Source: Chloroflexota bacterium
GTDB taxonomy: Bacteria; Chloroflexota; Dehalococcoidia; UBA2979
Direction of reading: 5' to 3'
Length of the DNA: 53,110 nt
NCBI GenBank assembly: GCA_002716405.1
Contig: PBBA01000012.1
Location: 1-53,110 of the forward strand
In this document: positions 1 to 4,682 of the stretch, piece after piece
Layout: each line of letters begins with the position of its first letter
Numbering within the stretch: position 1 is the first letter of the stretch
Program-made: the position numbers and the translations under genes
Notes under the pieces: model-generated
The model's input: only the letters and a program-made list of their open reading frames with translations
Told to the model about the DNA's origin: nothing
Databases searched by the model: none

Positions 1-543
1 CAATACCAAGATAATTTATATATGTTGGGTCACAGTGGTTATTTAGCCGTAAAAAGACGAGCCTTAATATATAGTCTAAAAAACTTAAAGGTTGAATTTA
101 CTTATAAGCAAATAGATGACTTCATGGAAGCCTATCAATATTTATCTCCATTCCCTGATGCAATCGAAGGATTGAACAGACTGAACGAAAAATATGATCT
201 TGTAATGCTTTCAAATGGTGAACAGAGCTACTTAGAACATTTAGCTAAGAACCGAATTAAACGTGAGTTCCATGCTATTTTATCAGCAGAAACAGTTGGA
301 CAATTTAAACCTCACCCTGCGGTATACCGTTTTGCTGCTAAAGAGTTAAACCTTGAACCCAGACAGATAATGATGGTTGCCGCACATTCTTTCGACACTT
401 TAGGAGCAAGAATCAGTGGCTATCGAGGTGCTTATGTTAATAGGTATGATTTACCATACGATGAATCAGAATTTTACGAATTATACATGCCTGACTACAC
501 AAGCAAAAACTTTCCTGAATTATGTGATTTACTAGGTGTCTAA
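1..543 (+). CDS. Haloacid dehalogenase type II-like hydrolase (5' end outside window)
   Basis: The frame is open from base 1, so the gene starts upstream and about 180 C-terminal residues are visible; the first in-window ATG at 22 is internal. HAD-superfamily motifs are seen in order: LSNG (motif II), FKPHPAVY with the conserved lysine (motif III), and VAAHSFDTLGARISG with the acidic motif IV residue. This arrangement and the closing YVNR segment match (S)-2-haloacid dehalogenase (type II), an enzyme that hydrolyses the carbon-halogen bond of short 2-haloacids. The catalytic N-terminal aspartate (motif I) lies outside the window, so activity cannot be checked. Other HAD phosphatases of the same fold are possible. 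It converges on cbiP. Confidence 0.8.
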   Translation, partial: QYQDNLYMLGHSGYLAVKRRALIYSLKNLKVEFTYKQIDDFMEAYQYLSPFPDAIEGLNRLNEKYDLVMLSNGEQSYLEHLAKNRIKREFHAILSAETVGQFKPHPAVYRFAAKELNLEPRQIMMVAAHSFDTLGARISGYRGAYVNRYDLPYDESEFYELYMPDYTSKNFPELCDLLGV

Positions 544-570
544 AAAAGAAATTAATGCTGCTACTTAGAA

Positions 571-703
571 ACGGTAGGTGTCAAATCACCTAATTCCTGT
601 AACCGTATAATTTACTGGTCCCCGTACTACTCCCTAAACGGCAATATTACAGTGTCTGGGTTTGGAAGAATTAGCTGAAAGTTCCATTTCATGGGCTGAA
701 ATG
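571..703 (+). promoter_or_regulatory. Structured intergenic element, weak resemblance to a cobalamin riboswitch
   Basis: The gap between the dehalogenase and cbiP carries nested inverted repeats on the plus strand. ACGGT (571-575) pairs with ACCGT (602-606) around GGTG/CACC (577-580/587-590). CCTGTAA (596-602) can alternatively pair with TTACTGG (612-618) with one mismatch. CATTTCA (685-691) pairs perfectly with TGAAATG (697-703) around a 5-nt loop. Between these, CCCCG-ACT (620-628) and TTGGAAG (662-668) fall in the order expected for a cobalamin riboswitch core. The canonical B12 box (CAGGAGACCTG-like) is not present: a CCAT-TTC-ATGG hairpin (684-694) sits in its place. There is no plus-strand gene downstream; the element points antisense into cbiP. 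It may be a decayed riboswitch, an antisense-RNA leader, or a chance structure. Confidence 0.25.
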
Positions 704-725
704 TGAAAAGCTTAGTGATCGTATT

Positions 726-2270
726 TCATTGTGTATTATGAATTTTCTCAAGTCCTGTCATTTTATATATCAAATCCATGTCAATACTTGTTCGCACCCA
801 TTCAGCAAGTTTATCGTATTCTTGATCTAAGTCTTGTCGTTCATTGGAGAAAACAATACTTAAATTTTTCAATTGTGCAATATGACTTAAAACGGATTGG
901 CGAAGCTTTATATTATGAAATAATCCATGTATATAAGTTCCTAGTACATCACCATTTTCATTGATAGCTCCATCAAAAGAAAAAACTGTTGTCTGATCAT
1001 CTTCTTGTTGTGATTGGATTTTAAATGGTTGCGCAAAAATATCACCTGATGTTCGACCCATATGGATTTCATATCCTGAAATCGGTATTGATAAAGCCCC
1101 GCCTAACAACCCATGATCACTAGTTATAATTGCCTTTATACGTTTTGTTGCCTTTGTATGCTCGAATACAGTAGTTATTGGTAATAATCCTAATCCTTCT
1201 AATTCTTTTATATCCGATTCAATACCACTCGGGTCATATAATTTCTTTCCTAACATTTGATAACCGGCACAGATACCTATTATGGGCGTTCCTTTTGAAT
1301 AGAGCCGTTTTATACAATCAGCTAAACCTTGCTGTTCCATCCAAAGGAGATCTGAAATAGTTGTTTTACTACCAGGGAGTATGATCAGATCGGGTTCACT
1401 TAGTTCTTCTATATTTGAAACATAGCGTAGATTAACGCCTTGTTCTCTAGCTAAGGGATCAAAATCATCAAAATTCGCTATATGCGGTAGTTGTATAACA
1501 ACAATATCCAACTCATTTTCAATAGACTTAGAACTTAATACTTCTAGCCCCACAGAGTCCTCTTCCGGTATATGAATATCGTTATAATGATTAATTACAC
1601 CTGCCACAGGAATGCCAGTTCGTTCCTCCAACCAACTCAACCCATCGTCGAGTAAGCTTTTATCGCCACGAAATTTATTTATAATAAAACCTTGGATAGT
1701 ATTTTTTTCCTCAGCATTCAAAAGTTCAAGGGTACCTACTAAAGATGCAAATACTCCTCCTCGATCGATATCACCGCACAAGAGAACGGGGGAGTTGCTA
1801 TACAGGGCAACTCTCATATTAACTATTTCATTTTCTTTTAAATTTATTTCCGCGGGGCTACCAGCACCTTCAATTACAACTATGTCATATTCATTGCGCA
1901 AAATATCTAAAGAAGAACAAACTGCATCCCAAAGTTGATTTTTTAATGCAAAATAATCTAAAGCTTTTGCAGAAGTAAGCGGTTTACCCATTACAACTAC
2001 TTGAGAAGAATCATCTGTTTCAGGTTTTAGCAATATCGGATTCATTTCTACACGTGATTCTATACCTGCAGCTTCTGCTTGAATGGATTGAGCTCTCCCA
2101 ATTTCTTTTCCATCAGGTGTCACATGAGAATTGTTGGACATATTTTGAGCTTTGAAAGGGGCAACACTATAGCCATCTTGTTTAAATATTCTACATAAAG
2201 CTGACACAAGAATACTTTTCCCCACGTGAGAAGCAGTACCTTGAACCATTAGTACATGTCCTTTATTCAA
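726..2270 (-). CDS. cbiP: Cobyric acid synthase (CbiP/CobQ)
   Basis: This enzyme performs the glutamine- and ATP-dependent amidation of adenosylcobyrinate a,c-diamide to adenosylcobyrate in B12 synthesis. At 514 aa it is full length. The N-terminal dethiobiotin-synthetase-like ATPase domain opens with GTASHVGKS (11-19) and continues through KAQNMSNNS and GAGSPAEINL. The C-terminal class I glutamine amidotransferase domain shows the nucleophile C334 in GICAGYQMLG and H448 in YIHGLFH. The start is TTG with an AGGTGA ribosome-binding site just upstream; the next in-frame ATG (2249) would clip the first strand, so TTG is preferred. It is last in a minus-strand cob cluster after cbiB and a broken cobD. 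Confidence 0.95.
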   Translation of the reverse strand: MNKGHVLMVQGTASHVGKSILVSALCRIFKQDGYSVAPFKAQNMSNNSHVTPDGKEIGRAQSIQAEAAGIESRVEMNPILLKPETDDSSQVVVMGKPLTSAKALDYFALKNQLWDAVCSSLDILRNEYDIVVIEGAGSPAEINLKENEIVNMRVALYSNSPVLLCGDIDRGGVFASLVGTLELLNAEEKNTIQGFIINKFRGDKSLLDDGLSWLEERTGIPVAGVINHYNDIHIPEEDSVGLEVLSSKSIENELDIVVIQLPHIANFDDFDPLAREQGVNLRYVSNIEELSEPDLIILPGSKTTISDLLWMEQQGLADCIKRLYSKGTPIIGICAGYQMLGKKLYDPSGIESDIKELEGLGLLPITTVFEHTKATKRIKAIITSDHGLLGGALSIPISGYEIHMGRTSGDIFAQPFKIQSQQEDDQTTVFSFDGAINENGDVLGTYIHGLFHNIKLRQSVLSHIAQLKNLSIVFSNERQDLDQEYDKLAEWVRTSIDMDLIYKMTGLEKIHNTQ

Positions 2271-2326
2271 TAATCACCTACCGTACATATTTTGAAGATA
2301 AAGAATCTTTTAAAAGCAATTTTTAA

Positions 2327-2752
2327 CTAAACCTCGACTAGTTCCATCATTGTGTTTACCAACTGCCTACATTCACTAAAAGGTCGAATTCCAATACGGA
2401 TATAATCTGGAAGCCCAAAAGAGGTGCAGTCTCTAACGACAATTCCTTTTTGAAGTAATCGATTCCTCCAGCTACCTGCAAGAATAAATGATGTATCAAT
2501 ATCTAGGTGTTTAGAGATCATCTCATGTAAATGCAAACACTCTGGATCGGGATATTTTGATAAGTCTATATCTTCTACTCCATCGAAAACAGATTCTGGA
2601 GGACCAAGGGGATTAATATTAGTGCTGAAATCTAAAATATCTTCATAAGCTAATCCCAGAGCACGTAATTCGGATAATTTAATACTGCCATGTATTGGGC
2701 GTATAGGATTATTCTTAGATAATCGAAATTTTTTATAAGACCTCTTGGACAT
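2327..2752 (-). pseudogene. CobD-type threonine-phosphate decarboxylase with large internal deletion
   Basis: The 141-aa frame joins two separate parts of a class I PLP-dependent enzyme of the CobD/HisC type, normally about 350-360 aa. Residues 20-93 match the N-terminus (HGS, LDFSTNINPLGPP, YPDPE, FILAG). Residues 99-141 match the C-terminus (LLQKGIVVRDCTSFGLPDYIRI, then the closing R...E...L helix). About 200 residues between them are missing, including the PLP lysine, the substrate-aligning Asp/Tyr and most of the dimer interface. The join lies near 2459-2473 and keeps the frame. A strong Shine-Dalgarno (GGAGATGG) precedes the ATG. It sits between cbiB and cbiP, as an aminopropanol-phosphate gene should. 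It cannot be an active decarboxylase; a real deletion and a misassembly are both possible. Confidence 0.85.
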
Positions 2753-2767
2753 ACAAATACCATCTCC

Positions 2768-3703
2768 TTAATGAATAATTAAGATAAGCGTTACAGCGCA
2801 TATCATTGTCAGTACAGCAGAGCAATACATAGCTTTTACTGTCCTGTTTATATCTTCGACTACTATTGGTCTTTTTTCATCACCAAGCTTGTACTGTGTA
2901 TCTTTTTCTAACGCTATGTTAAGAGCACCGGCAATTACACTCATAGTCCACCCAGCATTGGGACTTGCGGTATTAGCATGATCTCGCCACATAATATGCC
3001 AAGCATTTTTAGCATCTAGCTCAGATAGGAAAATACTACTTATTAACAAGGTACAAGCAGATAATCTAGCAGGAATAAAATTTAGTAAGTCATCGATTTT
3101 TGCAGAGAACTTTCCTAAATATTCATATTCACCTCGGTAACCGATCATACTGTCAAGTGTATTAACAACTCGATAAGCGACTGCTCCAGGAAGACCAAAA
3201 AAAGCAAATGCAATCATTGGCCCTGTAAAGCTATCAGTGACATTTTCTGATACTGATTCTATAGTCGCAGCTAAAGATTGTTGACTTGTTAAATTTGATG
3301 TATCCCTGCTAACCAAAGCAGGCATTTCTAACCTTACTTGATCAAGATCGTCTTGTTCCAGAAGAGTTTTTATTTTCGATGCTTCTTTATGAAGCATACG
3401 AATAGAAAATGTAGATTTTAAGAATAAACCAATGATCAAGACGTATAGAATATAATTTAGAGATTGGATGTAATAATTAAGTAAATATGTAGTTCCGGCC
3501 CAAAAAATTATAATAATAAGAAATAAAAATACACCATATATAAATTGCACATAATTTGAACTTGGGGATAAGAATTTAAGCCGTCTGATAGATAACCCAA
3601 TCCACGCTGTCGGATGCCATTTATTTGGCGGATCACCAAAAAATAGATCAATAAGCACTGCGATAATTAAGGCATATATTTCTACAGGAACATTCAAAAT
3701 CAT
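2768..3703 (-). CDS. cbiB: Adenosylcobinamide-phosphate synthase (CbiB)
   Basis: This membrane enzyme attaches (R)-1-aminopropan-2-ol phosphate to adenosylcobyric acid. The 311-aa protein is polytopic, with hydrophobic stretches near 8-20, 55-95, 165-185 and 290-311. It carries family signatures DLFFGDPPNKWHPTAWIG at the N-terminus, FAFFGLPGAVAYRVVNTLDSM mid-protein, and RDHANTASPNAGW. Length is normal for CbiB (about 310-320). It is the first gene of the cob cluster and lies 15 bp upstream of the broken decarboxylase that should supply its substrate. No riboswitch can fit upstream: tRNA-Thr begins only 26 bp away. Confidence 0.94.
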   Translation of the reverse strand: MILNVPVEIYALIIAVLIDLFFGDPPNKWHPTAWIGLSIRRLKFLSPSSNYVQFIYGVFLFLIIIIFWAGTTYLLNYYIQSLNYILYVLIIGLFLKSTFSIRMLHKEASKIKTLLEQDDLDQVRLEMPALVSRDTSNLTSQQSLAATIESVSENVTDSFTGPMIAFAFFGLPGAVAYRVVNTLDSMIGYRGEYEYLGKFSAKIDDLLNFIPARLSACTLLISSIFLSELDAKNAWHIMWRDHANTASPNAGWTMSVIAGALNIALEKDTQYKLGDEKRPIVVEDINRTVKAMYCSAVLTMICAVTLILIIH

Positions 3704-3729
3704 TTAACATCATTTCAAAGATTGATATA

Positions 3730-3804
3730 TGGAGCCGACGGTGTGAATCGAACACACGACCTACTGTTTACGAAACAGTTGCTCTACCCCTGAGCTACGC
3801 CGGC
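3730..3804 (-). tRNA. tRNA-Thr (anticodon CGU), CCA encoded
   Basis: Read on the minus strand, the 75 nt fold as a complete cloverleaf. The acceptor stem GCCGGCG pairs with CGTCGGC (one G-U). The anticodon stem ACTGT/ACAGT encloses loop TTCGTAA, giving anticodon CGU for the ACG codon. The T stem GTGTG/CACAC encloses TTCGATT. The discriminator U and an encoded CCA follow. The tRNA lies between the 3-hydroxyacid dehydrogenase gene and cbiB, all on the minus strand. Confidence 0.97.
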
Positions 3805-3809
3805 AAATG

Positions 3810-4682
3810 TCAGTTTTTTTTATAAATGCTAAATGCAGAATCCGATGACGAATCACCATATCCATCCGTAAGAGCACGAGTTAGATTTTCATATGCCGAT
3901 GAAGCCATAGGTGTAGGGATTTCAGATTCAATCCCTACTTGTAAAGCTAGTCCCAAATCTTTTCTTGCAAGACGGAGGGCAAAAGTCGGATTATCATAAT
4001 CTTCCTTAAATATCTTTTCTGCTCCACCTAAAATTTGTCGATTTGCACTTCCAGTTTGCATAACTTCTAATGCTCGAGCTGGATCAAGACCAGCACCATT
4101 TGCTAAAGCAAGAGCTTCGACAACAGTTTGTCTAGCACTAATTGAGACCAAATTATTAATTAATTTTACAAGAGCTCCATTACCTGAATCGCCCATATGG
4201 AAGATGTGATCTCCTATCGCCTCAAAAATGGGGTAGCATTTTTCATATGCTACTTGAGGTCCTCCTACCATTACAGCTAAAGTCCCATCAATTGCCCTTG
4301 GTACACCACCACTTACAGGGGCATCAAGTAAGGTAATTCCTACTGCTTCACAGACTTTAGCAAGACGCACTGCCTCAGATGGTAGATTTGTCGATAGATC
4401 AATGTGTATTGTCTCAGGTGCAGCATTTTCTAAAATGCCATCACTGCCAGTAATGACCTCATTTATTTCTTTTGGTCCAGGTAAGGAAGTTATAATGATT
4501 GGGCAATTTTTTGCGATATCACTGACACTTTCTAGCGGATTAGCACCTAGTTCAATGAGGTTGGCCATTCTTGCTTCCTCTAGATCAAAAACATGAACTT
4601 TATGCCCAGCACGAATTAGATTCAATGCCATTGGGTTGCCTATGTTTCCGACACCGATAAATCCTAATGGTTCGTTGAACAT
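3810..4682 (-). CDS. NAD(P)-dependent beta-hydroxyacid dehydrogenase (3-hydroxyisobutyrate dehydrogenase family)
   Basis: Enzymes of this family oxidise 3-hydroxyisobutyrate or interconvert tartronate semialdehyde and glycerate. At 290 aa the protein is full length. The N-terminal Rossmann motif GFIGVGNIGNPM (7-18) binds the dinucleotide. DAPVSGGVPRAIDGTL is the substrate-binding motif, and K173 in GALVKLINN is the expected catalytic lysine. The helical C-terminal domain is complete (RLARKDLGLAL). An acidic residue at the end of the second strand (VFDLEEAR) suggests NAD preference. The start has a good AGGAG site. The substrate cannot be assigned from sequence. Confidence 0.88.
   Translation of the reverse strand: MFNEPLGFIGVGNIGNPMALNLIRAGHKVHVFDLEEARMANLIELGANPLESVSDIAKNCPIIITSLPGPKEINEVITGSDGILENAAPETIHIDLSTNLPSEAVRLAKVCEAVGITLLDAPVSGGVPRAIDGTLAVMVGGPQVAYEKCYPIFEAIGDHIFHMGDSGNGALVKLINNLVSISARQTVVEALALANGAGLDPARALEVMQTGSANRQILGGAEKIFKEDYDNPTFALRLARKDLGLALQVGIESEIPTPMASSAYENLTRALTDGYGDSSSDSAFSIYKKN

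Follow-up and report, generated by a model that had tools for sequence, protein, structure and literature searches.

What is the 141-codon open reading frame that lies between cbiB and cbiP in the genome of a marine, SAR202-type member of the Dehalococcoidia (Chloroflexota): a shortened enzyme that still serves the cobalamin pathway, a small protein with another role, or the relic of a broken gene? The frame, which begins with ATG, is located near the left end of the window, that is, the whole stretch of 53,110 nucleotides of contig PBBA01000012.1 that we analyzed (Table 1). In an NCBIfam search, its residues 21-93 match positions 1-71 of the 331 positions of the CobD profile TIGR01140 (E 2e-15), and the final 44 residues align with the C-terminal ends of HisC/CobD-type models; against TIGR01140 it scores 56.7 bits, below the curated cut-off of 290.55. 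The gene adjoins cbiB and cbiP, and the same gene order is found in two further loci (L080 and L081). Taken together, the comparisons described below are best explained by a loss-of-function allele of a CobD-type L-threonine-O-3-phosphate decarboxylase.

Table 1. Features of the cobD locus; positions refer to the window, minus strand where marked, unless another locus is named.
Feature	Position	Strand	Remarks
cbiP, cobyric acid synthase, 514 aa, intact	726..2270	-	TIGR00313, 512 bits, over cut-off
cobD remnant, 141 codons	2327..2752	-	residues 1-93 of the intact protein joined to its last 48
Deletion junction, sole remaining copy of the 8-bp repeat TACCTGCA	2473..2480	.	comparison with G002
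cbiB, adenosylcobinamide-phosphate synthase, 311 aa, intact	2768..3703	-	TIGR00380, 271 bits, over cut-off; 98.7% aa identity to G002
cbiB-cobD-cbiP block, most likely exchanged	674..3729	-	about 98.8% identical to G002; absent at the G001 site
tRNA-Thr(CGT)	3730..3804	-	block meets older chromosome here; possible chimeric join
Deleted stretch, including both repeat copies	L038:4510-5210		in G002

We compared the locus with that of G002, a genome of the same genus (JAKUNM01), in which an 18,172-base contig (JAKUNM010000031, Dehalococcoidia MAG from ALOHA) carries an intact cobD of 372 aa (L038:4364-5482) between the same cbiB and cbiP. The best NCBIfam match of this intact protein is TIGR01140 (264.8 bits, just under the same cut-off) and its best PDB match is 1LC5. 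Window and G002 differ in the gene by one clean event: 693 bp, or 231 codons, have dropped out of the window between two occurrences of the 8-bp sequence TACCTGCA. The DNA flanking the gap is 98.7-98.8% identical in the two genomes. The absent part holds the PLP lysine K234 (identified by alignment with 1LC5) in its S-x-T-K motif, together with NPNNPTG and DEAY, all of which are present in G002 and in relatives. The window accordingly shares with CobD, as represented by TIGR01140 and 1LC5, the N-terminal 93 and C-terminal 48 residues and the cbiB-cobD-cbiP order, but lacks the 231 residues that include the catalytic lysine. AlphaFold2 models had a mean pLDDT of 39.7 for the remnant (5-row alignment) versus 66.5 for the intact protein (4-row alignment), a difference to be read lightly because both alignments are thin. 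The product of the remnant is probably an unfolded, non-catalytic peptide.

A sequence-only reading of this locus had anticipated much of this outcome: a family N-terminus over the first 93 residues, a C-terminus over the last 43, about 200 residues gone from the middle along with the PLP lysine, and a retained frame, ribosome-binding site and operon position between cobalamin genes that look intact. G002 bears out this description with minor adjustments of extent (48 C-terminal residues rather than 43, 231 missing rather than about 200). The window and G002 agree in the ribosome-binding site, AAGGAGATG, and in the spacing to cbiB, and both neighboring genes score above their curated cut-offs. 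The locus is a warning that an open frame in an intact-looking operon can still be broken.

We consider it likely that this is an ordinary, recent null allele, produced by a slippage or microhomology deletion within a horizontally acquired B12 block. Replication slippage, or other RecA-independent recombination, between the two direct repeats of 8 bp (on the coding strand, TGCAGGTA) would have removed the 693 bp, which encode the PLP lysine and the greater part of the large domain; the repeat points to this mechanism, and the loss itself is evident from the comparison with G002. Random deletion endpoints in cobD share at least 8 bp in only 3 of 10,000 cases, so the junction repeat is not a chance feature. 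The retained frame and ribosome-binding site count against a null allele, though they are expected of a very young deletion. Both repeat copies are read in the same frame and encode Ala-Gly, so that the frame would have survived without selection; more generally, direct repeats of 8 bp or longer form 21 pairs in the intact gene, and 10 of these pairs are in frame, so that an in-frame outcome requires no selection. The preserved frame is thus best explained as incidental. The locus resembles bacterial pseudogenes that arise through deletions between short direct repeats, with a clean gap, one repeat copy left and an intact allele in a close relative, but differs from them in that the number of deleted bases is, by coincidence, divisible by three. 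We rejected the idea that the contig is prone to deletions in general or badly assembled: the remaining 49 kb of the window, aligned to the genome G001, contains no indel larger than 18 bp.

Among the related genomes searched, the deletion is private to the window's genome. Of 60 relatives, 32 carry both cbiB and cobD and none carries only one of them, with the window's genome counted through its remnant. In the family (44 genomes), 23 genomes besides the window's have a cobD homologue (E <1e-42), and in each of these the sequence continues through the region deleted here. Two candidates for further truncated family members, in G067 and G018, were rejected, as these genes are short only because the contig ends there. 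The read-through locus in G002 could have called the gap into question; instead, it leaves a deletion that stands and is confined to one genome. The missing 693 bp were not found elsewhere in the window's assembly, and neither was a second cobD, the other TIGR01140 matches being HisC, encoded in a hisD-hisC-hisB operon, and weaker matches to other ORFs. HisC is the only close paralogue; the absence of a second cobD is not proof, because the assembly is 84.5% complete and a copy could sit in unassembled DNA. The sequence-only reading had left three options, namely, aminopropanol phosphate supplied from elsewhere, another role for the small protein, or a pathway starting to decay. The gene is intact in a sister locus of 98.8% identity and in every other family member with a homologue, and no copy was found elsewhere in the window's own assembly; this favors early decay, or else the loss of an acquired block that was dispensable. 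The two alleles, intact and deleted, are about 1% apart and located on a mobile vitamin B12 block, providing a snapshot of gene loss.

The mobility of the block is apparent from its surroundings. At the left end of the window (1-3812), a mosaic is observed, with positions 1-500 being 98.8% identical to G001 and positions 674-3808 being 98.8% identical to G002. From 3812 on, identity falls to about 83% with G002 and about 84% with G001, and the other B12-related loci of the genome provide a background of 80-91%. Over the 79 bp around tRNA-Thr (3730-3808), the window's genome (G000), G001 and G002 do not differ. In G001, the counterpart of the haloacid dehalogenase gene at window 22-543 lies immediately next to tRNA-Thr(CGT), which follows it, constituting an empty site without the block. 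In a CbiB tree, a clade of 15 sequences of the same family (support 100/99) excludes the window and G002, which are instead placed beside SAR202-type bins from the genome collection (81/95). Given the contrast in identity, the empty site in G001 and the CbiB tree, the block was most likely acquired from outside the family and recently exchanged within the genus. The same neighborhood shows another difference in gene content: between tRNA-Thr and a hydroxyacid dehydrogenase gene, G001 and G002 have a gene encoding about 101 aa that weakly matches NF007791 (isomerase family). This gene is absent at window 3808-3812, a second loss within 2 kb.

The mosaic left end could reflect either a recombination hotspot or a chimeric contig, and the latter leads to the most substantial alternative: that the left 3.8 kb derive from another population, joined through the 79-bp tRNA-Thr block, and/or that the cobD gap is a local misassembly. 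We regard this as possible, at a clearly lower probability than a genuine recent null allele. The drop in identity to G002 from about 99% to 83% falls exactly at the tRNA block common to the three genomes, the three-part pattern of the left end stands out from the 80-91% background, and the segment lies at a contig end, all of which speaks for a chimera. However, recombination at a tRNA-linked variable site yields the same mosaic, and G001 and G002 differ from each other at the same place. Moreover, a join at the tRNA would not create the cobD gap; it would assign the deletion to a different organism but leave it in place. As for misassembly at the gap, 8 bp is far below the usual word lengths of assemblers, and some real molecule should therefore carry the deletion. 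Exact queries across the cobD junction (34 bp) and across the tRNA/3808 junction (31 bp) gave no match in viral contigs.

On the side of corrinoid metabolism, the genes for CobT and CobU are adjacent in this genome, which also codes for CobS, CobA, a PduO-type adenosyltransferase, MetH and methylmalonyl-CoA mutase, whereas CbiC, the corrin-ring marker and the only ring gene looked for, and the salvage amidohydrolase CbiZ were not found in the genus; CbiZ-dependent remodelling was rejected on the latter ground. From this gene content, the genome looks like that of a cobinamide salvager in which the block is dispensable, and we infer that the cell is B12-dependent and able to finish cobinamide. 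The acquired block would allow it to start from cobyric acid or its diamide precursor. Loss of CobD would spare cobinamide and cobalamin salvage and disable only the step from cobyric acid to cobinamide-phosphate, such that the linker used by CbiB would have to come from elsewhere or the block would be idle. In the family at large, cbiC was detected in 1 of the 36 genomes searched, and many genomes have cbiB and cobD without cbiC and without cbiZ; the cbiB-cobD block may serve there in the salvage of cobyric acid-level intermediates. Small marine genomes may shift between levels of corrinoid salvage by gain or loss of one cassette. Uneven retention of the pathway is already known in SAR202, in which cobalamin biosynthesis is prevalent in deep members and absent from euphotic ones (PMC11245477).

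The genome shares with cobinamide-salvaging bacteria such as Dehalococcoides mccartyi (PMC6461909) the nucleotide-loop genes, the B12-dependent enzymes and the lack of the corrin-ring marker. Unlike salvagers of that type, it carries an acquired cbiB-cobD-cbiP block with a broken cobD, and no FecCD corrinoid importer scores over the cut-off in it, so that the salvage route is incomplete as seen. The genome needs corrinoids, yet has no such importer over the cut-off; a strong FecCD-type permease (BtuC-like) is present in G001 (L153, G001:C4:152293-153246). Among the B12-dependent enzymes, MetH (L150:1772-4429, 885 aa) does not begin to match the MetH model until position 339, leaving the N-terminal homocysteine-binding module outside the ORF; the corresponding ORFs of G001 and G002 are of similar length.

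A working pathway despite a real deletion, with the aminopropanol or ethanolamine phosphate for CbiB supplied by another enzyme, for example, a promiscuous one of the HisC type, appears unlikely to us. A bypass is conceivable because cobD annotation is absent from most experimentally verified cobamide producers, to the extent that the survey left cobD out of its criteria (PMC6461909); other sources or unannotated enzymes may exist. The two flanking genes are intact, with substitution ratios of 0.17-0.23 that are of the purifying type, but the deletion may be too young for decay of cbiB and cbiP to show. Against a bypass, the sole close paralogue is the true HisC of the histidine operon, every other relative with cbiB has a cobD homologue, and with CbiC absent, flux through CbiP and CbiB relies on imported intermediates.

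The substitutions in the remnant itself lean toward relaxed constraint. Relative to G002, cbiP and cbiB together show 10 non-synonymous and 15 synonymous differences, compared with 5 non-synonymous and 1 synonymous in the remnant (Fisher p = 0.08, on only six changes); three of the six lie at residues 3, 4 and 8, and the last 48 codons have none. Retention of the 141-aa protein because it had gained a non-catalytic function, such as that of a CbiB or CbiP partner, would fit the open frame, the start codon, the ribosome-binding site and the unchanged last 48 codons, but is highly improbable, as the remnant occurs in one genome only, zero substitutions in 48 codons are expected at about 1% divergence, the residues of the active site have been lost, the fold is modeled poorly and the N-terminal changes lean non-synonymous, although not significantly. 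The broader scenario in which the block repeatedly enters and decays at a tRNA-Thr hotspot in small-genome SAR202-type bacteria, with the CobD remnant kept here as a non-catalytic partner, we likewise consider far-fetched.
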